From Astropecten irregularis (lineage: Eukaryota > Echinodermata > Asteroidea > Paxillosida > Astropectinidae): DNA of 64,000 bases. Under the pieces are notes generated by a model. It made no database searches. It saw only the letters and a program-made list of their open reading frames with translations, and was not told where the DNA came from. Below, piece by piece: positions 1,302 to 60,945 of the stretch. Numbering within the stretch: position 1 is the stretch's first letter; the number at the start of each line of letters is the position of its first letter. Made by a program: the position numbers and the translations under genes. The DNA lies in NCBI GenBank assembly GCA_963971285.1, contig OZ020260.1, positions 8,094,798 to 8,158,797 on the forward strand, in the 5' to 3' direction.

Positions 1302-1371
1302 CTGTGTACTTCCCTCTGATATGGCAAGATCTTTGAATAAGGGAGCTGTCACATCATCCCAGAATTTAGGT
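1302..1371 (-). CDS. NUP188: NUP188 exon 33 (last exon in window)
   Basis: It encodes PKFWDDVTAPLFKDLAISEG then STQ, parallel to vertebrate PKFWENLTSPLFGTL. The first base completes the Arg codon of exon 32. Acceptor TTTGTAG, donor GTAAAC. No further exon is seen in 1-1,301. Confidence 0.93.
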
Positions 1372-4300
1372 CTACAAACAAAACAGGGAAATTCAAAATA
1401 AGATTTAGAAAACCAAAAACAACTATTTCACACAATAAAAACAGATTCTATGAAGACAAATGATGACAAACATATGAGAATTTGAATTGATTGACGTCAA
1501 GTTGACCAGGGCCCAAACATTCTTTGCTTACGGTAGCAGATTTGTTTTGCTTAAGGTTAACGTATTTCACGGGAGTATATTCTTTTTGGTAACAGTAAGC
1601 AAGGAATTTCTGCAGACTTCATATGATAGCGTGTTAGGAGAAAATAATCATGGTAACCCTAGAAATTCTTCGCTAACCGAAAAGTCTTGCTTACGGATTC
1701 CATGATATAGATTCCACTAGTAGCAGTGCCCCCAAGCACAAAAATAGGCCGTAACGGATTCCATGAAATTGGGCCCAGGCAAATGAAATAATCATCAGGA
1801 TAAGGCTAATGTCATGATTTGGGTCTTTAACTTATATTGTGAGATGTGGAATAATGTACAAGGCACTGAAGTCATATGCAGTCCCTCTGGATGTAGCTTG
1901 ACATTTCTGAATTGATGACAGTCTCCATACAGAGAGCCTGAATCCTCACAATCAACTGATCAGACTGTGGCATGAAGCATCATACAGTACTTACCTGACT
2001 CTAAGCACTGAGAGTGCAGTCTCTCTACAATCCAGCCACAGTCAGACTGTAGGTGTTGTATCATACAGTACCTACCTGACTCTAAGCACTGAGAGTGCAG
2101 TCTCTCTACAATCCAGCCTCAGTCAGACTGTAGGTGTTGTATCATACAGTACCTACCTGACTCTAAGCACTGAGAGTGCAGTCTCTCTACAATCCAGCCA
2201 CAGTCAGACTGTAGGTGTTGTATCATACAGTACCTACCTGACTCTAAGCACTGAGAGTGCAGTCTCTCTACAATCCAGCCACAGTCAGACTGTAGGTGTT
2301 GTATCATACAGTACCTACCTGACTCTAAGCACTGAGAGTGCAGTCTCTCTACAATCCAGCCACAGTCAGACTGTAGGTGTTGTATCATACAGTACCTACC
2401 TGACTCTAAGCACTGAGAGTGCAGTCTCTCTACAATCCAGCCACAGTCAGACTGTAGGTGTTGTATCATACAGTACCTACCTGACTCTAAGCACTGAGAG
2501 TGCAGTCTCTCTACAATCCAGCCACAGTCAGACTGTAGGTGTTGTATCATACAGTACCTACCTGACTCTAAGCACTGAGAGTGCAGTCTCTCTACAATCC
2601 AGCCACAGTCAGACTGTAGGTGTTGTATCATACAGTACCTACCTGACTCTTAGCACTGAGAGTGCAGTCTCTCTACAATCCAGCCACAGTCAGACTGTAG
2701 GTGTTGTATCATACAGTACTTACCTGACTCTAAGCACTGAGAGTGCAGTCTCTCTACAATCCAGCCACAGTCAGGCTGTAGGTGTTGTATCATACAGTAC
2801 CTACCTGACTCTAAGCACTGAGAGTGCAGTCTCTCTACAATCCAGCCACAGTCAGACTGTAGGTGTTGTATCATACAGTACCTACCTGACTCTAAGCACT
2901 GAGAGTGCAGTCTCTCTACAATCCAGCCACAGTCAGACTGTAGGTGTTGTATCATACAGTACTTACCTGACTCTAAGCACTGAGAGTGCAGACTCTCTAC
3001 AATCCAGCCACAGTCAGACTGTAGGTGTTGTATCATACAGTACCTACCTGACTCTAAGCACAGAGAGTGCAGTCTCTCTACAATCCAGCCACAGTCAGGC
3101 TGTAGGTGTTGTATCATACAGTACCTACCTGACTCTAAGCACTGAGAGTGCAGTCTCTCTACAATCCAGCCACAGTCAGACTGTAGGTGATGTATCATAC
3201 AGTACTTACCTGACTCTAAGCACAGAGAGTGCAGTCTCTCTACAATCCAGCCACAGTCAGACTGTAGGTGTTGTATCATACAGTACCTACCTGACTCTTA
3301 GCACTGAGAGTGCAGTCTCTCTACAATCCAGCCACAATGCTTGAAGGAATCCCAGAGCAGCACAGTGTAGATCAGGTGGACAATGAGTAGTACCCTGCAC
3401 AGTAAGACATGTAACAAACCCTTATGTGATAAACAGTCATGGTAAACATTGTCATGTCAAAGGCAAGATGGGAATGATAGCACTCTTATTGATACTTTCC
3501 ACTTCCACATGTTTAGTATTGACGTTCCATACAAATGGTCAACATTTAGCCAGTGTGCATTGCCAAGTTGTAGAGACCTACACTGACCACTGAGGAGTGG
3601 GGGCTTTAGCCAATGCATCCTCTAATTGGACTATTTGGCCATTTCTATGGCAGCACGCCTTGTCAGCCAATTTCATTTGATTTCATAAGGAGAGCCTCAA
3701 GGCTCAAACAGAGAACATCCAATGGGAGCTTACATGTATCTTTTGTTGGCTGAGTATAGCCAAGAAAGTTTGTGAAATTACATTATTGCAAAATGACAAT
3801 TAAACTACAAAACTGCAAACACAATGTGTGAAGAACTGGCAACATGTGTGATTAGCTAACAGCTGTCCTATGAACAACTCCTGCTGTGCAGATTATGAGC
3901 TCAGGGGTCAATTTCACCAAACTCATCATAATTTTATACTATCACTCGTAGGAGTTATGATGCATTGCAGCCTAAATTAGAAATGATAGGTAATCCTAGA
4001 TAACTCGATTTACGATCGATCGAAGGGCTTCAGAAATCGACCCAAGCCACCACATAGTAGGATGATGCATCTGCCATTTGTTCATATAAATACCCATCAA
4101 ATTAAATACTTTTCAATTGCTTAAGATGATGATTGTAAACAATATCATGGTTGTACAAGCTCCAATCAAGAACATGGAGTACGTACCTGTTTAACTTCTT
4201 CTATGGCATCAAGCACAGCATGTAGACAGCTTACTTTACCTATCTCCACCTAGATATGTAAAATCAAAATGAAGCATTTATACAGTGTACATACATACAA

Positions 4301-7300
4301 TAGCAGATGTAATGTAGGAAAAACAGGCTGAATGGTCATTGACCAATCAGACATTGTCCAGACCTAATCTGAAGAATGAGATGAACTTCATGTAATGCAC
4401 TGGGAGATGGCAAAACCAAGCTTCATATTCCCGTATATGAACTGCATCAGGTTGGTTTACAATTTTTCACTATAACCAGGCCCAAATCCTCCCAGCTTTT
4501 CTTAAAGGTATAATATAATAATTAGGGCTCGCTGGTGAGACAGATAGTAAAGGACATAGGTCTGCAGATGCCAGGAGTTAGAGGCACTATATCTACTAAC
4601 CTTAGGGCTCGCTGGTGAGACAGATAGTAAAGGACATAGGTCTGCAGATGCCAGGAGTTAGAGGCACTATATCTACTAACCTTAGGACTCGCTGGTGAGA
4701 CAGATAGTAAAGAACATAGGTCTGCAGATGCCAGGAGTTAGAGGCACTATATCTACTAACCTTAGGACTCGCTGGTGAGACAGATAGTAAAGGACATAGG
4801 TCTGCAGATGCCAGGAGTTAGAGGCACTATATATACTCCCCTTAGGACTCGCTTGTGAGACAGATAGTAAAGGACATAGGTCTGCAGATGCCAGGAGTTA
4901 GAGGCACTATATCTACTAACCTTAGGGCTAGCTGGTGAGACAGATAGTAAAGGACATAGGTCTGCAGATGCCAGGAGTTAGAGGCACTATATCTACTAAC
5001 CTTAGGGCTCGCTGGTGAGACAGATAGTAAAGAACATAGGTGTGCAGATGCCAGGAGTTAGAGGCACTATATCTACTAACCTTAGGGCTCGCTGGTGAGA
5101 CAGATAGTAAAGGACATAGGTCTGCAGATGCCAGGAGTTAGAGGCACTATATCTACTAACCTTAGGGCTCGCTGGTGAGACAGATAGTAAAGGACATAGG
5201 TCTGCAGATGCCAGGAGTTAGAGGCACTATATCTACTAACCTTAGGGCTCGCTGGTGAGACAGATAGTAAAGAACATAGGTGTGCAGATGCCAGGAGTTA
5301 GAGGCACTATATCTACTAACCTTAGGGCTCGCTGGTGAGACAGATAGTAAAGGACATAGGTCTGCAGATGCCAGGAGTTAGAGGCACTATATATACTCCC
5401 CTTAGGGCTCGCTGGTGAGACAGATAGTAAAGAACATAGGTGTGCAGATGCCAGGAGTTAGAGGCACTATATATACTCCCCTTAGGACTCGCTGGTGAGA
5501 CAGATAGTAAAGAACATAGGTGTGCAGATGCCAGGAGTTAGAGGCACTATATCTACTAACCTTAGGGCTCGCTGGTGAGACAGATAGTAAAGGACATAGG
5601 TCTGCAGATGCCAGGAGTTAGAGGCACTATATCTACTAACCTTAGGACTCGCTGGTGAGACAGATAGTAAAGGACATAGGTGTGCAGATGCCAGGAGTTA
5701 GAGGCACTATATCTACTAACCTTAGGGCTCGCTGGTGAGACAGATAGTAAAGAACATAGGTCTGCAGATGCCAGGAGTTAGAGGCACTATATCTACTAAC
5801 CTTAGGACTCGCTGGTGAGACAGATAGTAAAGGACATAGGTGTGCAGATGCCAGGATTTAGAGGCACTATATCTACTAACCTTAGGGCTCGCTGGTGAGA
5901 CAGATAGTAAAGAACATAGGTCTGCAGATGCCAGGAGTTAGAGGCACTATATCTACTAACCTTAGGGCTCGCTGGTGAGACAGATAGTAAAGAACATAGG
6001 TCTGCAGATGCCAGGAGTTAGAGGCACTATATCTACTAACCTTAGGACTCGCTGGTGAGACAGATAGTAAAGAACATAGGTCTGCAGATGCCAGGAGTTA
6101 GAGGCACTATATCTAATAACCTTAGGGCTCGCTGGTGAGACAGATAGTAAAGGACATAGGTCTGCAGATGCCAGGAGTTAGAGGCACTATATCTACTAAC
6201 CTTAGGACTCGCTGGTGAGACAGATAGTAAAGGACATAGGTGTGCAGATGCCAGGAGTTAGAGGCACTATATCTACTAACCTTAGGGCTCGCTGGTGAGA
6301 CAGATAGTAAAGGACATAGGTCTGCAGATGCCAGGAGTTAGAGGCACTATATCTACTAACCTTAGGGCTCGCTGGTGAGACAGATAGTAAAGGACATAGG
6401 TCTGCAGATGCCAGGAGTTAGAGGCACTATATCTACTAACCTTAGGACTCGCTGGTGAGGTAGTAGCAGAAGCTCCTTGCTGGTCTACATTATCTGACTT
6501 CACCTTCTCTACGTTCAAAAATAGTTCACTCAACCCTGGCTGGGTCTCCACGGCAACCGTCAATAGTTCCAGGATGCCAACCTTTAACCTCTCATCCTAT
6601 AACAAACAGCAATAAAACAAAGAGAGTTGAATAGCAAAATGATTCAAAAGCATGGAGCAACTTCTTGCTATTCTGACATCAATAACCTCTTCTTACTCCA
6701 CATATCACTCAGCATAGAAAAAATCTGTACATACACCTCCCAATGGAAATTTAGATCAAAATGTTGTTATTTGTAAAGCAAACATACTTCAGCAAATCTG
6801 GTCATGCAAAGTCCACAGAAACCTGTTCTAAAGTGGTTGAGATGGATATTATTTAGATGGAAGTTGATGGTATATGACTGAGATATTGACTGGTCTAAGT
6901 AAGTAAGACCTACCTCTGAGTGAGCTTGTAGACGAGACAGGTAGATATCCCTGATTGCTGCTGCTTGACTTCCTAGACAACCAAAAATGGACATGGGGGC
7001 CACCTGTATAAAGTACAACACTGAGATATTACATGTAGGCTGCTAACAGATCAAGAGTAGTATACAATCAGAATCTCATTCATGGACATATCTCATGGTT
7101 GAAGTAGAATCTAGCTAGCTTGGCTTACCATGGCCACTCTCTTCAGCAATAAAGTAGCTAGTGTAGGAAGCCGTGGGTCATGTCTATGGTAGATGTAGCC
7201 AGCAATAAGACCAATGAGGTGAGGTTGATGAGGTAAGCCAGTAGTATGGGATGTCAGGGCTTGTTCCAGGGGGCATGGTGGCTGGTCACGGGGCTTCAGC

Positions 7301-10300: not shown

Positions 10301-13300
10301 TTGTCCGACCAACATAATTATGAATAAAAGCCCTTAAAATATAAAAACAATATGCTTATGACTTCCAATTTATTATTAGTTTCGTGATAGAATTACGTTA
10401 ATTACGCCATTAATACGCCGTATTGGTTCACTGGCCAGTGAAGTTCTACGCGTACGATGTACATGAAATCGCCCCATAGTTCTTTACGCACGGTAAAACT
10501 TCGGTCATTCAGCTCCGATCAAAGTCGCATGCAAATCATGAGAAGTGGCTGTAGCCGCTACCACCATAGACTTGTGTGTAACATCAAGCCACAGCCAAGT
10601 ATTTTAGACGCGGCCTAACAACGGCAGTGTCAAGAATTAGACGTAAGGAGAATTTGACCATAAAAAGCACTCGGCACACGCGGTATGCTGCATATGCAAT
10701 GGGATTTTAACGAAATTCTCAATACATGTGACAGATAGAAACCCACGTGGTCTGTATTTCTGCAGGTCCATTGAGTTCACGTGCGTGCGTGTGTGAAGTT
10801 TACACTCTGTTTACACGTACGGCATGGGAGTTTATAGGCCTTCACGAACGAAGTTGTTGAAAACTTGTGCCTTTGGGGGAAAGTTGTAGCAAGGCTTTTC
10901 TTCTACTCTAATATTAATAACCATATATGAGTCGAGAAATCGCTTCATCCCATGTTATGAAGCGAAGGAAAGTGTAGACAGAAAGCGCAAACCTGTCTTG
11001 TCCCATACACATACATCCAGTACACGTAGTGCATGCAGTCTGTAGCGTAAACCGATGGGGTTTGGTATCCTGACACAGGGGTATTTTGCAATTCATTGTG
11101 TATGATGTTTTTCCGTAGGCGGAAGGGTGCCTTGCTAAATGAAAAACCATCCTTGTAAGTTGTAGTTGTACATTATACCAATCGCGCTCGGAAGGTTTAT
11201 TTTAGTAGTAATTTTACGATGTTTTTTAGATTAAAATATATGAACAGTGTGTTTCTACTTGGCGAAATGGACAAAATAACTGACTGTAAATTTTTTTTGC
11301 GTGAGCCAATCGTGAGCCACGGTGAGTCCATATTTTTTTGGTGTTGGTTTCGGTTAATCCTTTTGGCAAATTAGTAAACGGAAACGTTTAATCCGTGTGG
11401 GTTACTCTATATCCGAATAAAAAGCACAGCACTATTGTACACATTCACAGTCTCTGCAGCAAAGGAGTGGAACAGTCTGCCCTCTTACATTCAATGTGCA
11501 GGATCTTTGGGTCAATTGAAGAAAAAACTCAAATCCTACCTGTTCCACCAATAATAATGCTACAGATAATATATTTCCAACATTAACTTTATTTGTGTAT
11601 TACGTTTATGTAATTATATGTGTTTGATTATCATTTGTAAGCGCTGTGATTTAGTTTACTAAGAAGAGTGTTTTAAATGCTGGTTATTTTTATTAATATA
11701 ATCATCAAATAACCACAAGGGAAACTGACTAAATTTTTAAAGTCATTGAAAAGTGAACAAAGAAAAATTGACTGCAGTGGGATTCCAACCGGCGACCTCC
11801 TGAATACCGTACAAGCACTCTACCAACTGATCTATCCAGCCCTACGTTGGTGGTGTCCTCAATAGTCAATTATCTTTGTTCGTTTGGCAGTCAGAAGCCA
11901 TGAAACCATGCACACACTGTCATATCCCAAGGATCATTTCACCGATACACACAGCAATGCTGCAACCTGGGAACAGTACATGGGGGATCACTCAAAGTGG
12001 ATACAGCTTTTTATTTAATATAATCATCAAATAACCACAAGGGAAACTGACTGAATTTTTTAAAGTCACTGAAAAGTGAAAAAAAAAGATTGACTGGAGT
12101 GGGATTCGAACCGGCGTCCTCCTGAATACCGTACAGGCGCTCTACCAACTGAGCCATCCAGCCCTACGCTGGTGGTGACCCCAATAGTAAATTTTTCTTT
12201 GTTCACTTTTCAATAGTTATAATTATTATTATTATGGTACCATATGTTGATTTTAAATCATTGGCTCTGATCTCATCAACATAACGTCATATCAAAACCA
12301 ATCCCTGAGCTAATTAGCCTCATTGGAAACATTTTTTGAAAGTTGAATCCAGGTCTAGTTAATCTTACCTTAAGGAGTGCCTTAAGAAGACGTAGAAACT
12401 CCATTGTGACTGGATATTCCCCAGTAGGTTGCTCCTGTGTAGAGAGAAGCTTACCATACTCTGCACGGTAGATACCTTCACCACTAGAACAAAATGCAGG
12501 AATAGAACACAGTCCATGAAGAAATCAGACTTTGAATGATGTGTTTCTAAAATGAACTCTAGCATGGCTGCACGATTGACCACTAAAGTGACCTCTGATG
12601 TAACGTCCAAAATGACCTCTGATATGACTTTTGAAATGACCTTTACCTACAATTACTCCCAAAATTCACCCCTAGAATGGCCTCTAGAATTCTTCTGAGG
12701 GAAAACATTCACCCATCTCATAATTCACTTAACCCCTATTAGACACTGGTTCACAATGTTCAACTGGCCAGAGAACGCGTGCAGGGAGGGATCTTATCGT
12801 AAACAATTTGGGCAATTTAATGGACTTTCCCGGCGATATCCCCTGGAAACTTATATACATGTTTTCTGGGTGGAAGAGGTAAATATCATGTCCCAAAATG
12901 AAATGTCATTTTTCAAAATGTACATTAATAACAGAAATTTGATGTGATAAATTGTTTGGCAAGAAGCAAATGTTGCTAAACTGGTAACATTTGGCTTAAC
13001 CTCTCTTTGAGGAAAAACACTCTACAGTTTTGTACCTGACTGCTACAGCTACATCAGTGTAGACATTACCAGTATGAGGCAGGAAACCAGACTTCTGTAT
13101 ACTCTGCCAAACCTGAAAGAACAACCAAATATGAACCAGAATACAATGAGAATAATTATGTTACTATTTAAAAACCTTTCATACGATAAAATATTTAAAA
13201 GACAACTACTTCATGTTAACTAGTTTAATTAAATCAGTGTATAAACAAGACCACATGTATAAGTTGCAACTTTGTTGCTTAAATTCTGTACCAGTTTAAT

Positions 13301-16300
13301 GAAGAGTGCATTTCCAAGGTTTTGGGAGGTTTTCGTAAAACAAAGTTATGTCTTTTTGGCATATATTTGCATGCCTTCCAAATACGTGGTATACGTGCGG
13401 TTTCTTAAAAAACAAAAATGTTTTTAAATTGGGGTCTTTCAAGAACGACTGATCAAGGAATAGGTCAAAGTTACTTAACATGTAAGGTATTAAGTTACTG
13501 TGGAATTGCCCAAGACATGATTTTACTACATAAAGGGATTGGGTTTTTGCAGATTCTAATGATGATAAGTGAGTTTGCATGAATATTGACCATACCTGTT
13601 TGGGTTGATGTTTGGCCATGACTGAGATACATTTCAAGCAGATAGATAGAAGGCTCAATGGAGGATTAGATAAACAACTCAAGCTGCAATATTAATGACA
13701 AATACAATCAAATAACATGCAATGTACATGCAATATTTGGAACTGAATTGAGATTCTGGAATGGCAAATACAATTCACTTGTATCATATGTGACATACTT
13801 ACACACATTATGGCCTCTATTCCCTACATGCTTGAAGTACACATATTACAATTCCCCTTCCATTACTATTAGGCCAAAAAAAAAAAATTGTTTGTTTGCC
13901 CTTCGGAAAAAAAATCAGCAGGGCCGGTCGGTTGATTTTTTTTATTTTATTTTTTTTTATATATAGGCCTACAATGATTTATTAAACCGTGGATGTTATT
14001 CCCACATTGTTTCTAAAACAGAACACACACAAAAAAGGATATCAACAATCATGGAAACAGAATCTCAAAGTATTTAATGTTTTATTTTTCTTGTTTCTTG
14101 TTTTGGTTTTGTTTTTTACAGACAATGCACATGTGTGCTTGTGCACGTGTACGAGGCGCGTGATGCATGCATGTTTTTCTGACATCTGGGGATTTTGTAC
14201 ACGCGCGCTAGCCAAATCACTCGTCTGACTAAATGCAGTGCGGAGCGCTATTAGCCAAACGGAATATGTTTAGCGTTTGTACGATCGATCCATGATGCAT
14301 GTAAGCAATATCCAACTCGTACGTACAGCAATTTTTGTGAATTTTTGAAATATTTTTCAGCTTTAATATGGGTGCTTTTAGGTTTCAAAACGCTAAAAAA
14401 ATATCTGAGAAAGTATAAATTATATTTTTAACGATCTTTTTTGGCCAAATTATGACATTTTGTGAGTTTGCACAAGGGATTAAAAAAAAAGAAAAAAAAA
14501 CGCGACCCAAGATTTTCGTGATTTTCCGGTCGGTCGCGGAGGGCAAACAAACAATTTTTTTTTGTTTGGCCTTATAGAGCTATATTGACACTACTAGAGC
14601 GCTAGCTCCGCATTCTCCGTGCATAGATTCTTTCAAGCCGTCTGGGCGCAGTCATTTTGAATTTGTATGCGTGTCTGTGGAACAAGAAAACTTTGACTGG
14701 AATGCCTTTCAAAGAGTGTACTCTCTATGCAACGCGCAAGTAAGTACGCATGGGCGCTGCTGTTGTATGTGACTCGACTGCTGATAAAATCCAACATCAT
14801 GGCAAAATTTAAGTGCAGTGCATGTATGCGGACTGTGCAAAATAAAACGTGCATTTACCGGAAGTGCATCGGATTTGGGGCGTATTTGGCTTCGATAACG
14901 CACCTGTATAGAACACAACGCAGATATGCAAATGAATGTACAAAAAAACGTACACAATTTTGTGTTTTCCACAGGTTTGTGCACAAACATGGATGCGCCC
15001 AGCAGGCTTAACTTTGTACACGGAGCTAGCGCTCTAGTAATTTTAATATAGTTCTATGATTACTATACAGTATATTCCATTTTGATACCATACACTACAT
15101 CAGTTAGGTTGACCATCTATAGTGTACATATATGACATGAGATCACCATTCATGTGGCAGTTTAGGTTGTCAAACCTCTGACTGGCATCTCAACAGGTAC
15201 ATTTGACAATAGGAAGGCCTTAGCTAGGGGTAGGATAGCTCAGATGGTAGATTATAAGTACACTAAGCCAGGTCAGGACAGTTCAGTTAAATTTTCTCTG
15301 CTCAACCAAAAATCTGAATAATTCCTAAAATGTCTAAAACATGGAATGAACCATGTGATCAAGAAAATAAAAGCATCAAATAACCACAAGAGAAACTGAC
15401 TGAATTTCTAAGTCATTGAAATGTGAACAAAGAAAAATTGACTGGAACAGGATTTGAACCGGCAACCCCCTGAATACCGCACAGGCAATCTGCCAACTGA
15501 ACTATCCAGCCCTACGTTGGTGGTGACCCCAATCCCGCCCCAGTCAATGATTCTTGGTTCACCTTTCAATGAAGAAAATAAAAGCATAGAATATCAACTT
15601 ATAATTACCTCGGGAGCAATAGAAAGAGAGAGTCTGTGATTGGCTGGAGCTTTGATGAGAGTGACCAATCAGCTTGCAGGGTATGGGTCACCAGGTCAAT
15701 GATTGACTCAGCTTGGCTAACTTGAACACCTGTAAAAACAAGAAAAACAATCAAATGAATCAAACACGGAACAAAAATATTAGGGCGCCCCTTTTTATTA
15801 CTGTGGTTCTCATTTCCTGACTGACCCATATTGTGTACTCCGACCGAAGAAAAAACAAACTTTTTTTTGCCGCCGACCCTGTCCAGAATGACATAATATA
15901 AATTCAAGAAAAAAAAATTAAAATTCCAGAATTTATGGAGACAAATTTTGCCAATAAGCCTACATTTTTATACTTTTTATCACAGAAATAATAAAACAAT
16001 TATTTAAAAGAGATTACACTGAATACAATGAACATTTCTAATCATTTTCTTAAGGTTTTTTTGTATTCAGCCAGATTTTTTTTTCTACCATACTTTTTTT
16101 TTCAACCGACCGAAAAAGAAATGAGAACCACAGTAATAAAAAGGGACGCCCTTATGTAAATACATAGATAAGCCTAAACCCCAGCTGGCTCAATCAAATA
16201 ATACAAAAAGGATTGTGCAGCAATTTGGATTTGACAAACTTTGGGAGTGATATTCAGAATGATAAAACAATTGATAGCTTGAGAAAGAATCCCCACATTA

Positions 16301-19300: not shown

Positions 19301-22300
19301 CACCCTCTACATCCTGAACAAAAACAGACAACATAGAGCTGAGTGTATCAGTGTATCAGGATATTTGCACTGATCTATACAAACTGGATAGGTCGCAGGT
19401 GCAGTGATTAGATGGCGAGCCCTGAAGTCACCAGCGGTCATGTTACGATATTCAGCACAATACTCATTGCACTGTATAACAGCATGCAGTGCAGCAATTC
19501 TATGTATACACTGGCTGCCGCACCTGCCATTGTACATGTTGTATTGAATATCTCAATATGGCAGCACAGATGCTTCACGGCCAAACTCAGTCCAACACTG
19601 TGCAATATCTTTACAGCATATTGTATGGCAAGTCTAGCAATTACAATACAGATAAGATAACACTGTCTAGATCTTCTATCTAGACCAATCATCCAGTACA
19701 TGAGATGGACCTTGATGTCTTAAGATATAGCTAAGAGCTATTTACGTATCTGCAGAGACAATCCAGCCAAAGCCACTATGGTATGATAAATAGCATTACA
19801 GGCTTAACACAGTACATGCATCATGACGTATCATTTCTACTCCTAGAATAGTACAAGTACACTAATTACATGATGAATGCATGTTCAACATACAACCAGT
19901 CATAGGCCAAGTATCTACATGTATGATAGCTAGACTGTAGACACATTCAACAAATATCCAATCAACTGAATTTAAGCAATAATGACAGAACTTACACTTT
20001 CCCAGAATTCTTGGCATAGTTGGGGTAGGTTGAGAAGCTGACAGGCTAGATCTATCAAATCCTACAGAGAGATAACATGTTAGATTATTACAAAACAACA
20101 TTCATCTTAATCATGATGTTTTCATCTCTTTAACTTATCAATATTATGTGTGAATGATTTGGGAGAGAGTAGAGAAAGTTTGACTCAATTAGAACCCCCA
20201 ACTAGTTTATACCAGATAAAAATTGCAATTTGCAGCAAGATACTGCAGAATATGTACTGATTTCATTGTTGAAAAACTGGAGTTATCAATCATTTCTATG
20301 TTAAACATGATAAAGATGGAGTAATTATTCAAACAATGCAAGAATACTAAGGGCCTGTTTGTTTAACACACAGGACCACAGATTCTACTGATCCGGATCC
20401 CATTTTAGTGTACCCTGCATAGGACATGGATCCGCACATCTGGGATCTCATGCGTTAAACAAACAGGCCCTAAGCCATCACCCAGAAATTAATGTTCAAC
20501 AAATACCAGTCACAAACCACGGTCATCAGCAGACAGCAGCCATATTGCATTGAAGTTTAGCTGGTAATCTATCTTGGGCACAGCACGTTTATATGCTTAG
20601 TAGCTCCATGAAGTCAAGACATACTGACCTGCCGATCACCCAGAGTGTCTTCACGGAACAGAGTAAGAACCAATGTAAGCAGAGAGTACACAGTGACATG
20701 ACATGCCAAACTCAGGACCTGAAATAATGGACAAGATATTCAGTACAACATAATGATACATGTGACTGGTCTCACCACACCACTGGATAACAAGTTATCA
20801 TTAATGCCTTAATATGCAAAACGCTTCCAAATCAATTTCCATTCTTGGGAAATAACTATGAATTATCTTTCACATTTTGAGCCAGTCCATGCCTTGGGAA
20901 ACTTGAGCTTCAAACCACCTTCAACAGGCTACTTCATTCAAATAAAAAAAATAATCATCAAATAACCACAAGGGAAATTGACTGAATTTAAATTCTAAAT
21001 ATCTTAGAATATTCTAAATATCAATGCTACACGTATCGTTAGAATGATCCTTGGGATAAAGTGGTATGTGAGTGGTTTCTAGGGCTGGATGGCTCAGTTC
21101 CAGCAGAGCGCCTGTACGTTATTCAGGAGGTCGCCGGTTCGAATCCCTCTCCAGTCAATTGTTCTTTTGTTAAATTTTCAACAAAATGAAAAAAAGGACG
21201 ATGTATATTATGCATGTGTTTCTCTTCCTGATCTTATATGTAAAACTCACAAAACCCATGGACAAATGTGTTCAGAAGATTAGCATAAAAACAAGGACTA
21301 ATCACAGCAGTACAAGCATTATTACTAAGGGTGTCATATGAAGATGGCTGAAATGTACCACTTACTGATTTACTTTGGCCAGGGATACTGGCTAACTGGC
21401 TAGACATGTAGCGGAAGACTTGCAGTTGGACGGCCTGATGACCGAGCCTTTTGACCACTGTCATGTCCTTCTCAGGCCATAGGGTGCCATGAATGACCAG
21501 CCAGGCCAATAAGACTGGACCATGACAAGGTAGGTTACCAAGACTCTGCAATATTGATGACAACTCCTACAAGATACAAGATACAAACAAAATGAGGATA
21601 TGATGACATAGAATACAGTCTTATAACCATAGCTTGATTGCAAACAAGTTATTGCCCTTCAACGACGTAGATAAGCATGAAATTGACTAATAAACATCCT
21701 CCGTCGCAATCCAAACGGAAATGTTCTCAAAACAGATCTGATTGGCTGAAATTGCTGCGTTGCATAAAATGTGCATGCACGCATGTATCAGATGTTCGTA
21801 CATAATGCAGTGGTACGGAGTAGAACGGGTGATACTCAGACTAGGACTGGGAAGCTTTAGTATCAAATGAAGATTTAAATATCAATAAAAATGTGTCCTA
21901 AATATACTTCTTAACATGTGATACATACCCCTGCTAGCTTCTTATCCGATGTAAGACAATGGCTCATTATGCTAAAAGATGAAGACATATAGAAACAAAT
22001 ACTTGTAATCATCAATTAGCATAACCCATGATAATTTACTCTTTTTAGCAAATTGGAGTGCAATATGTCCAGTGGCCATGAGGAATTAGTAAATATGTAT
22101 CATGCTTTAACATGACATTTAAGAAAAAAATTAAGAAAAACATGAATATGGGTATACATAATAGAACGATATGAGATTTCTGAAGGTACATGGACACTGC
22201 ACAATGCACACATCATCACCTCTGGTGGAATAGCAGACCTGTTACTATTAACACTTCTCCTGATATGATATTGACAACATATTTATTTCCAACTTACACA

Positions 22301-42472: not shown

Positions 42473-43198
42473 CGTACCGGTACACACTGTTGCAGCTGTT
42501 TACTGGTATATACACTGTTGCAGCTCTTTACTGGTACACTGCTGCAGCTCTTACTGGTACACTGCTGCAGCTCTTTACTGGTGCACTGCTGCAGCTCTTT
42601 ACTGGCACACTGCTGCAGCTCTTTACTGGCACACTGCTGCAGCTCTTTACTGGCACACTGCTGCAGCTCTTTACTGGTACACTGCTGCAGCTCTTTACTG
42701 GTACACTGCTGCAGCTCTTTACTGGTATACTGCTGCAGCTCTTTACTGGTACACTGCTGCAGCTCTTTACTGGTACACTGCTGCAGCTCTTTACTAGTAC
42801 ACTGCTGCAGCTCTTTACTGGTACACTGCTGCAGCTCTTTACTGGTACACTGCTGCAGCTCTTTACTGGTACACTGCTGCATCTCTTACTGCACACTGCT
42901 GCAGCTCTTTACCGGTACACTGCTGCAGCTCTTTACTGGTACACTGCTGCAGCTCTTTACCGGTACACTGCTGCAGCTCTTTACCGGTACACTGCTGCAG
43001 CTCTTTACTGATACACTGCTGCAGCTCTTTACTGGTACACTGCTGCAGCTCTTTACTGGCACACTGCTGCAGCTCTTTACCGGTACACTGCTGCAGCTCT
43101 TTACTGATACACTGCTGCAGCTCTTTACTGGCACACTGCTGCAGCTCTTTACTGATACACTGCTGCAGCTCTTTACTGATACACTGCTGCAGCTTGCA
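42473..43198. repeat. 24-bp minisatellite, about 30 copies
   Basis: The unit is about ACTGGTACACTGCTGCAGCT plus CTTT, repeated with few changes (GGT/GGC/GAT at the variable position). The period is a multiple of three, so long open frames appear on both strands (up to 268 residues of low-complexity LLQLFTGT). No start context, splice signals or family resemblance supports coding. Confidence 0.95.
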
Positions 43199-45587: not shown

Positions 45588-45738
45588 CGGTCATGATGGC
45601 TCAGTTGGTAGAGGGCCTGTACGGTATTCAGGAGGTCGCCGGTTCGAATCCCGCTCCAGTCAATTTTTCTTTGTTCACTTTTCAATGACTTAAAAATTCA
45701 GTAAGTTTCCCTTTTGGTTATTGTATTTGATGATTATA
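45588..45738 (+). mobile_element. tRNA-like repeat, copy 6 (best preserved single unit)
   Basis: It has TGGCTCAGTTGGTAGAGGGC, a 17-nt middle, GCCGGTTCGAATCCCGC, then CTCCAGTCA and the common tail ending TTTGATGATTA. The acceptor stem pairs poorly at the 5' side, and there is no U33-like base in the presumed anticodon loop, so it is not called a tRNA gene. Confidence 0.8.
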
Positions 45739-60448: not shown

Positions 60449-60945
60449 CATCAAATAACCACAAGGGAAACTGGCTGAATTAGAAGTCATTGGAAAGTGA
60501 ACAAAGACAAATTGACTGGAGCGGGATTCGAACCGGCGACCTCCTGAACACAGTGCAGCTATAGCGCTCTACCAACTGAGCTATCCAGCCCTACGTATTG
60601 GTGATGTCCCAAATAGTCCATCATCTTTGTTCATTTGGCAGTCAATACGGCAGCCGTATCCTCTTGAAGTGATCGTACTGTTTCTCAAGTTGCAGCATTG
60701 CTGCATGCGACTATCGATGATGATCCTAGGGATATAGCGATATGTGCGTGGTTTCATGGCTTCTGACTGCCAAGCGAACGAAGATAAATGACTATTATAG
60801 GGACATCACTTAAAACGTAGGGATGGATAGCTCAGTTGGTAGAGCGCCTGTACGGTGTTCAGGAGGTATTCGGTTCGAATCCCGCCGGAGTAAATGTTTC
60901 TTTGTTCACCTTTCAATGACAAATTAATTGAACCTTTGCAGCAGC
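60449..60945. mobile_element. tRNA-like foldback element, copy 9 (most complete)
   Basis: Left arm: tail, then a minus tRNA-like unit (60,515-60,592: GGGATTCGAACCGGCGACCT, CTCTACCAACTGAGCTATCC). Right arm: a plus unit (60,822-60,895: GGATAGCTCAGTTGGTAGAG, GGTTCGAATCCCGC) then a tail. The sequences between the units (GTGATGTCCC...; GGGACATCAC) are also inverted. The centre carries the GTTGCAGCATTGCTGCA segment shared with 229-320 and 11,925-12,010. Confidence 0.82.

Follow-up and report, generated by a model that had tools for sequence, protein, structure and literature searches.

Two tandem arrays in the NUP188 gene are, with a probability of roughly 0.85, 'mirage' minisatellites, that is, a segment straddling an exon-intron junction was duplicated and then expanded, and the mRNA stayed unchanged. 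The gene lies on the minus strand of the window (the whole stretch of 64,000 nucleotides that was analysed). The phenomenon itself is already published, which the initial annotation had missed: as 'mirages' in amphioxus (PMC3087553, PMC3902484) and in a related form in human genes (PMC2812944).

Host and gene

The exon peptides aligned with residues 758-1022 of human NUP188 (E=2.3e-66) and with residues 752-1019 of the NUP188 chain 7wkk_B, which we take to be the Xenopus protein. Exon coordinates were derived from the sequence and the in-frame joins, and the exon numbering is that of the initial annotation. The COX1 of the host reads FFSTNHKDIGTLY under translation table 9 (AAA=N, ATA=I; echinoderms and flatworms) and FFSTKHKDMGTLY under table 5. 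With table 9, it matched mammalian COX1 with 463 bits over 251 residues. The mitochondrial code thus points to an echinoderm host.

Table 1. Arrays and exons of NUP188 in the window, and mirages in other genes of the same genome
Feature	Position	Strand	Unit and copies	Basis and remarks
Array A	1979..3336	-	81 bp x 16.8, 98% matches	TRF; starts inside exon 32
Array B	4522..6459	-	80 bp x 24.2, 96% matches	TRF; starts inside exon 30
NUP188 exon 30	6441..6596	-		Protein alignment; joins exon 31 in frame; the first unit of array B takes in its last 19 nt
NUP188 exon 31 (VEIGKVSCLHAVLDAIEEVKQ)	4187..4249	-		Protein alignment and joins
NUP188 exon 32	3291..3394	-		Protein alignment and joins; the first unit of array A takes in its last 46 nt
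NUP188 exon 33 (PKFWDDVTAPLFKDLAISEGSTQ)	1302..1371	-		Protein alignment; in-frame join to the first donor of array A
ARL8, donor mirage			86 bp, about 23 copies	Clear homology
VARS, donor mirage			86 bp x 4	Clear homology
NAT10, donor mirage			60 bp x about 50	Clear homology
PAN3, donor mirage			69 bp	Clear homology
NUDT9/TRPM2, donor mirage			77 bp	Clear homology
GCKR, donor mirage			35 bp	Weak homology (E=0.0026, confined to the exon's first 30 residues)
TBC1D32, acceptor mirage			66 bp x about 76	Pfam BROMI_C, 3.2e-19

Anatomy of the two arrays

Each array repeats the end of an exon, its 5' splice site and the start of the intron. The unit of array A comprises 46 nt of exon end, the donor and 35 nt of intron start, and that of array B comprises 19 nt of exon end, the donor and 61 nt of intron start. 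In array A, 17 donors follow one another in exact 81-bp steps from 3290 down to 1994. All of them read GTARGT (17/17): 13 are CAG/GTAGGT (the slash marks the splice site), including the first donor, and the four in copies 2, 5, 8 and 17 are CAG/GTAAGT. Array B has 24 donor positions in exact 80-bp steps from 6440, and its copy 25 ends at the donor. The majority of these positions read AAG/GTTAGT (20 of 24), one reads AAG/GTTATT and three read AAG/GGGAGT and hence lack the GT.

The two units gave no BLAST match to each other, and elsewhere in the window only short chance words of either unit were found. Insertion of a transposable introner or a satellite would predict one sequence at many sites of the genome. 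A genome search with array A returned three matches among the best candidates, all within array A, and the search with array B covered the 64-kb window. TRF, the donor register and BLAST therefore agree with the initial annotation, which had described two unrelated arrays with units of ~80 bp, each running from an exon end over the donor into the intron. It had also placed only exon 31 between them; exon 31 does lie there, together with most of exon 32.

Copies vary within both arrays. There were 8 types among 16 copies in array A, with copies 10-15 identical, and 12 types among 24 copies in array B. This pattern is minisatellite-like turnover. The intron past the last copy of array A (1900..1978, minus strand) resembles a degenerated extension of the unit, as if it were the original intron start: the fraction of 1000 dinucleotide shuffles that were as good was 0.003 at length 30 and 0.001 at length 65. 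For the corresponding stretch past array B (4440..4521, minus strand), the fractions were 0.02 and 0.065, and the weak likeness to the unit's intronic portion is marginal.

Copy numbers of 80-bp arrays can come out wrong in an assembly, but the arrays as such are very unlikely to be an assembly artefact. The variants among the copies are ordered, the period is exact, and versions with 3-4 copies, short enough for one read, occur in VARS and at a further locus (L036). As arrays, A and B are far beyond chance. The statement that two donor arrays in one gene exceed chance is much weaker.

The window holds a third long array at 42484-43194 (TRF: 24 bp x 29.6), where no recognisable exon was seen on inspection by eye.

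Donor choice and reading frame

Splicing at the first donor of either array joins the exons in frame with NUP188 (LRVR/PKFWDD and SPK/VEIGK), and the protein read through the exon-proximal donors is uninterrupted and can be aligned with human NUP188 and 7wkk_B. In array A, an in-frame stop follows directly after the first donor. This was read out for four of the 16 later donors, and as each of the 16 includes the sequence after the first donor, all of them reach the stop. In array B, use of the second donor changes the reading frame, which then runs into a stop within exon 31; from the third donor onward, a stop inside the second unit is included (7 of the 23 later donors read out). From the reading frame, the first donor is probably the site used in vivo. 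By consensus, the CAG/GTAAGT donors of array A are stronger than its first donor, so use of the first donor would need a position effect.

We infer the following course for mutation and neutrality. A segment of ~80 bp across an existing 5' splice site would have been tandemly duplicated once, and the duplicate would then have been expanded by unequal exchange or slippage, in the manner of a minisatellite. As the extra unit sits intronward of the original end of the exon, use of the exon-proximal donor would splice out all further copies. The mRNA would therefore remain unchanged, and array growth could be nearly neutral. Arrays A and B would have arisen independently, in line with the initial annotation, which had proposed two independent amplifications spanning an existing donor and had seen their relevance to models of intron gain.

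DNA hairpins were considered as a driver of expansion and rejected: the two unit DNAs and their shuffled versions folded about equally well (z of -1.4 and +0.5).

Similar arrays in the same genome

When the 476-Mb genome that contains the window was scanned for patterns and the matches were classified at the level of arrays, the same structure emerged in further genes (Table 1). An additional locus (L058) is a probable acceptor mirage. L036 resembles VARS in having a mirage-type structure with only 3-4 copies. The array at L049 (C12:259029; 64-65-bp unit, about 37 copies by the scan rows), at most a candidate, shows a short open frame ahead of its donor. The array at L059 (86 bp x 4) has its start inside an open frame and runs across the stop codon of that frame; the frame had no Pfam match, and the array was not tallied as a junction array. 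Pfam searches with frames of L036 (0.071), L037, L029, L046 (0.05), L058 and L065 gave nothing above the cut-off, where the query for L029 was another frame than its frame MENLIKTLTYDLKE.

These genes bear on two proposals of the initial annotation. Selection for the arrays, e.g. for a regulation of NUP188 splicing through multiple donors, could be suspected from the presence of two arrays within one gene. However, the later NUP188 donors lead to stops, and the structure recurs in the unrelated genes ARL8, VARS, NAT10, PAN3 and NUDT9/TRPM2. In all, six further unrelated genes carry it; homology is clear for five of them and weak for GCKR. Selection acting on the splicing of NUP188 thus lacks support and is highly improbable. 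A bias specific to donors, such as R-loops or repair at donors, is not supported either, because acceptor mirages occur as well. With TBC1D32 and the probable case at L058, a donor-specific cause was dropped as the leading reading.

Arrays at junctions compared with random placement

We counted single-locus arrays with a unit of 50-90 bp that had been picked by words unrelated to splicing. Four of the 13 span a junction, two at donors and two at acceptors. Random placement would give 0.8 arrays at 3% per junction type and 1.5 arrays at 5.6%, which corresponds to P values of 0.006-0.049, given an assumed donor density, exons read by eye and a small sample. Homology supports two of the four junction arrays, and the other two (three of five in the larger set) rest on open frames with no homology match. 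After adding L004, L029, L039, L040 and L051, where donor words match away from the exon's own donor, the count was 5 of 18 (P 0.0034-0.043). With three multi-locus families entered as non-junction arrays, it was 4 of 16 (P 0.013-0.096).

The counts have the following scope. From one non-splice scan, arrays in the first 100 of 445 rows were taken, leaving out the three multi-locus families (units near 39-77 bp), units under 50 bp and a 35-bp array (L064). In the other non-splice scan, unit lengths were taken from the rows, and arrays whose unit was shorter than 50 bp were left out. L056 and L067 were excluded, as TRF calls no array there, and L039 was included (TRF: 55 bp x 10.6). In the donor-word scans, the short-unit and multi-locus arrays C28, C18, C8, C22/GCKR (35 bp) and C24:7644742 were left out, and the first 100 of 154 rows were classified in the third of these scans. 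For the word GACATTC, most of the first 100 of 335 rows came from a satellite family with a unit of 37-38 bp (contig C1), and GACATTC arrays did not enter the counts. The words AGGTRNGT (degenerate donor), TGAGTGGA (control), TTTGCAGG (acceptor), AGGTACGT (donor) and CTTGCCA are outside all counts.

Row counts of donor words against the reversed word (39 vs. 26, 69 vs. 153 and 154 vs. 88) showed no consistent excess. They were discarded as a genome-wide test, as a few long arrays, together with short-unit satellites, dominate them.

Two readings of these counts were weighed. Junctions could be hot spots of tandem duplication through a local mutational bias, e.g. replication or repair at exon edges linked to transcription or nucleosomes, and mirages would then exceed random placement. 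The rates of 4/13 and 5/18 speak for this. The sample size, the cases with an open frame only, the assumed donor density, the omission of multi-locus families and short units, and the donor-word rows speak against it, and we regard such a bias as possible but rather unlikely. The other reading is that duplications arise everywhere by chance; those wholly within exons are mostly purged, and those in introns or at junctions persist through splicing. This is probable. The small sample contains junction-spanning arrays, an intronic, non-junction array (in PSMD12), exon-free arrays and in-frame coding arrays, whose units of 60 and 78 bp are both multiples of three and open in one frame. Moreover, donor and acceptor cases are equal in number. 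Against this reading, the rate of 4/13 is nominally above expectation. The counts hint at an overrepresentation of arrays at junctions in general, donors and acceptors alike; they do not support one specific to donors. The general excess is suggestive and not proof.

Comparison with known systems

In the available text of the amphioxus papers, mirages are described in Adh (Adh3), the globins BflGb6 and BflGb9, troponin C and PGBD5. Regular splicing is reported there to be undisturbed, and a route to new introns is proposed (PMC3087553, PMC3902484). As in these cases, where the unit crosses the exon-intron boundary at a 5' or 3' splice site and many copies carry AG/GT signals, arrays A and B have a boundary-spanning unit, repeated splice signals and an intact frame at the exon-proximal site. 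The unit lengths found here (35-86 bp) fall within the range of 10-160 bp given in that text. Copy numbers are 17, 24, about 50 and about 76, compared with 6 and 3 stated for the two haplotypes of BflGb6. The host differs, being by its mitochondrial code an echinoderm and not a cephalochordate, which is not a logical requirement for a mirage.

In human genes that belong to segmental duplications, exon-intron boundaries can carry variable tandem repeats, which have been linked to novel introns; as far as the text at hand goes, they lie in recently duplicated paralogues, and the repeat is often kept in the exon of the transcripts (PMC2812944), whereas the NUP188 arrays are predicted to be spliced out. 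The Rogers model, as cited in the accessible part of PMC3087553, derives intron gain from the tandem duplication of an exon segment containing AGGT, and the potato RdRp gene is presented as a case of this type in the portion consulted of PMC4974935. Here too, a tandem duplication puts extra GT/AG signals into a gene. However, in NUP188 the duplicated piece lies across a donor that was already present, and the outcome is a longer intron, not a new one. Ordinary intronic minisatellites or VNTRs share the unit length, the variant structure and the copy turnover; they differ in that the first (or last) unit of a mirage lies in coding sequence and includes the splice site of the exon itself.

Implications

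A gene-by-gene curiosity of amphioxus now recurs across many genes of an apparent echinoderm, in donor and acceptor forms and with up to about 76 copies. It is doubtful, yet conceivable, that donors and acceptors alike are genuine hot spots of minisatellite birth here as in amphioxus, several-fold above random, and that junction amplification is a general deuterostome process, a steady source of spare splice sites from which new exons and introns could form. At mirage loci, tens of nearly identical splice sites compete with one another, which makes these loci natural tests of splice-site choice by the spliceosome; they also bear on whether the duplication of splice sites feeds intron gain.

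A pair of donor mirages in NUP188

The two tandem arrays in NUP188, at the donors of exon 32 (array A) and exon 30 (array B), are a new pair of mirage minisatellites, that is, minisatellites whose unit straddles an exon-intron junction. TRF located both long arrays within 6.5 kb of the window start. NUP188, read from the minus strand, was identified as the host gene by the peptide assembled from its exons, which aligned to human NUP188 758–1022 (5ijo_J, E=2.3e-66) and also to a second NUP188 chain, 7wkk_B. The initial annotation had described the arrays as running from an exon end across the donor into the intron, and a copy-by-copy listing with a donor recount confirmed this.

The unit of array A comprises the end of exon 32 (46 nt), the donor and the intron start (35 nt); its 17 donors are spaced at exactly 81 bp (CAG/GTAGGT 13, CAG/GTAAGT 4). 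Array B is arranged in the same manner, with 19 nt from the end of exon 30, the donor and 61 nt of intron. Its 24 donor positions are spaced at exactly 80 bp (AAG/GTTAGT 20, AAG/GTTATT 1 and AAG/GGGAGT 3), and an incomplete 25th copy ends at the donor. The window holds a third long array (unit ACACTGCTGCAGCTCTTTACTGGT), for which an adjoining exon was not recognised by eye.

Coordinates of the arrays and of other repeats and tRNA-like matches (bare positions refer to the window, G000 to the genome assembly)
Feature	Position	Strand	Unit and copies	Source
Array A, exon 32 donor	1979–3336	minus	81 bp x 16.8, 98% matches	TRF
Array B, exon 30 donor	4522–6459	minus	80 bp x 24.2, 96% matches	TRF
Third long array	42484–43194		24 bp x 29.6	
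tRNA-like matches (n=5)	12091–12163, 60513–60590, 15439–15511, 21083–21157, 45590–45662			Rfam
TBC1D32 acceptor mirage (L055/L068/L069/L071)	G000:C9:8813360–8818400		66 bp x ~76	
In-frame coding repeat (L061–L062)	G000:C11:20264840–20267186		60 bp	
PSMD12 intronic array (L060)	G000:C11:15734404		64 bp x 21.7	
Stop-codon array (L059)	G000:C10:27980571		86 bp x 4	
Satellite family	G000:C1:895427–3480876		37–38 bp	

BLAST returned zero matches between the two units, which upholds the earlier claim that the arrays have no sequence in common. Neither unit was found elsewhere in the window, short chance words aside. Part of array A was also queried against the genome, where the best candidates, the only ones scored, all lay in array A. 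There are 8 distinct types among the 16 copies of array A (copies 10–15 are identical) and 12 types among the 24 copies of array B. Such a pattern is typical of minisatellite turnover. The intron past array A resembles a decayed further unit (fractions of equally good shuffles 0.003 and 0.001, n=1000), and the same test was marginal for the intron past array B (0.02 and 0.065). The likeness at array A is consistent with an origin in which the native junction was duplicated in tandem, with the original intron start left stranded at the far end of the array.

Predicted consequences for splicing

Joining the first donor of exon 32 to exon 33 gave LSVLRVRPKFWDDV, and joining the first donor of exon 30 to exon 31 gave SPASPKVEIGKVS; both agreed with homologues across the junction. 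The later donors of array A led to an in-frame stop immediately past the original exon end in the 4 of 16 that were translated, and the same stop is expected for the remainder because the first intronic bases are the same in all. In array B, where 7 of the 23 later donors were translated, donor 2 caused a frameshift with a stop within exon 31, and from donor 3 onwards a stop occurred in the second unit included. The reading frame thus suggests that the first donor is the one used in vivo.

Donor mirages found with donor words

The genome scans covered a 475.7-Mb assembly of 168 contigs, in which the window is G000:C24:8094798–8158797. The pattern of three AGGTAAGT copies at 58–88 bp spacing gave 39 rows, including an 86-bp array in ARL8 with ~23 copies by its edges; it starts within an exon with 44/46 residues identical to ARL8B (chain 8jc5_A). 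The AGGTGAGT scan (69 rows) yielded donor mirages in VARS, whose first-donor joined peptide matched valyl-tRNA synthetase (E=1.3e-7), and in GCKR (35-bp unit; E=0.0026 on exon residues 1–30). It also gave a likely donor mirage with a weak carnitine acyltransferase match (L036, E=0.071) and a candidate with an open frame only (L037). The first 100 of 154 rows of the AGGTATGT scan contained a 60-bp donor mirage whose two-exon peptide matched GNAT_acetyltr_2 (E=1.8e-21), in a gene we take to be NAT10, a 69-bp one in PAN3 (E=1.9e-14), and an open frame with a diverged first copy (L046).

For the tally, single-locus arrays with 50–90-bp units were used, with exons judged by eye and then homology-tested. 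Of the 13 arrays, 7 (ARL8, VARS, NAT10, PAN3, L036, L037 and L046) had the donor word at the donor of the exon and 5 (L004, L029, L039, L040 and L051) did not; L029 has an open-frame donor on the opposite strand. Its role was ambiguous in the 13th (L049).

Arrays found with non-splice words

As donor words select for donors, a sample was taken with the non-splice words TGAATGGA (26 rows) and CCATTGA (first 100 of 445 rows). Multi-locus families and units <50 bp were left out, and 13 arrays were kept. Two were donor mirages: in L043/L053, the first copy is an exon of a NUDT9-type ADP-ribose hydrolase or TRPM2 (E=5e-11), and L065 has an open frame only. Two were acceptor mirages. One lies upstream of a TBC1D32 (BROMI) exon, its unit made of 27 nt of intron end and 39 nt of exon start, and its last copy is the exon start (Pfam E=3.2e-19, all 47 residues). 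The other (L058, 73 bp x 4) has an open frame only. Hence, the donor-specific bias proposed in the initial annotation was not seen in this sample.

No exon was recognisable by eye in five of the 13 (L044, L045, L054, L063 and L066). L057 and L061/L062 (the latter encoding TIDQPGPSSAGHPMSVSDGS) were read as coding, with a unit length that is a multiple of 3 and a single open frame. The PSMD12 array lies within an intron, 72 bp beyond the donor. L059 starts within an open reading frame and covers its stop codon; it is possibly the stop-codon counterpart of a mirage, with extra copies that would fall in the 3' UTR.

Junction excess or chance

Assuming ~200,000 donors per genome, the probability that a donor falls within a random 72-bp segment is 0.03; at the density of the gene-dense NUP188 region (7 donors/9 kb), it is 0.056. 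For both junction types, 4/13 were observed against 0.8–1.5 expected (P 0.006–0.049), which hints at an excess of arrays at splice junctions. For donors alone, the count was 2/13 (P 0.056–0.16). Adding the three left-out multi-locus families as non-junction arrays gave 4/16 (P 0.013–0.096), and adding the five arrays hit by donor words off the exon donor gave 5/18 (P 0.0034–0.043). However, the sample is small, exons were read by eye, and the row counts for word and reversed word (39 v 26, 69 v 153 and 154 v 88) showed no consistent excess. The most economical account is that tandem duplication arises anywhere and survives where splicing discards the surplus; a junction hot spot is a testable alternative to it.

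Host genome

Under table 9, in which AAA is asparagine and ATA isoleucine, COX1 of the likely mitochondrial contig (C168) reads FFSTNHKDIGTLY; table 5 gives FFSTKHKDMGTLY instead. Table 9 is the code of echinoderms and flatworms. By this code, the first 252 residues matched mammalian COX1 with 463 bits, nearer than expected for a flatworm. The host is accordingly taken to be an echinoderm. The repeats presumably resemble sea star repeats.

Another COX1 match, a 552-aa stop-free frame on G000:C131 (L034), differs from the mitochondrial COX1 and is likely a bacterial contaminant. The tRNA-like matches of the window are possibly tRNA-derived repeats; ARAGORN called two of the five as tRNA-Thr and tRNA-Cys. 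The satellite family (GACATTCCC...AGGGAAGAGATGCACAAAGTTTCT) occurs in many places in the first 3.5 Mb of C1 (first 100 of 335 matches).

Published precedents

Such a structure has already been described in amphioxus and named 'mirage', in the passages available from PMC3087553. These report minisatellite-like duplications of intron-exon boundaries, 5' and 3', in globin genes, two haplotypes of one globin gene with 6 and 3 units, and regular splicing by RT-PCR. They also cite the somatically unstable Adh3 mirages as earlier cases and put mirages forward as an intron-gain model. Excerpts of PMC3902484 add amphioxus mirages in PGBD5 and troponin C. For human segmental-duplication genes, the accessible part of PMC2812944 reports variable tandem repeats at exon-intron boundaries, with 27 intron modifications upon manual inspection, and ties them to novel introns. 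Therefore, arrays of this kind were already known, also from hosts other than lancelets. Among the open-licence literature matches listed, no title concerned echinoderm arrays of the mirage type. What is new here is a mirage pair in an apparent echinoderm, with others at both junction types of its genome.
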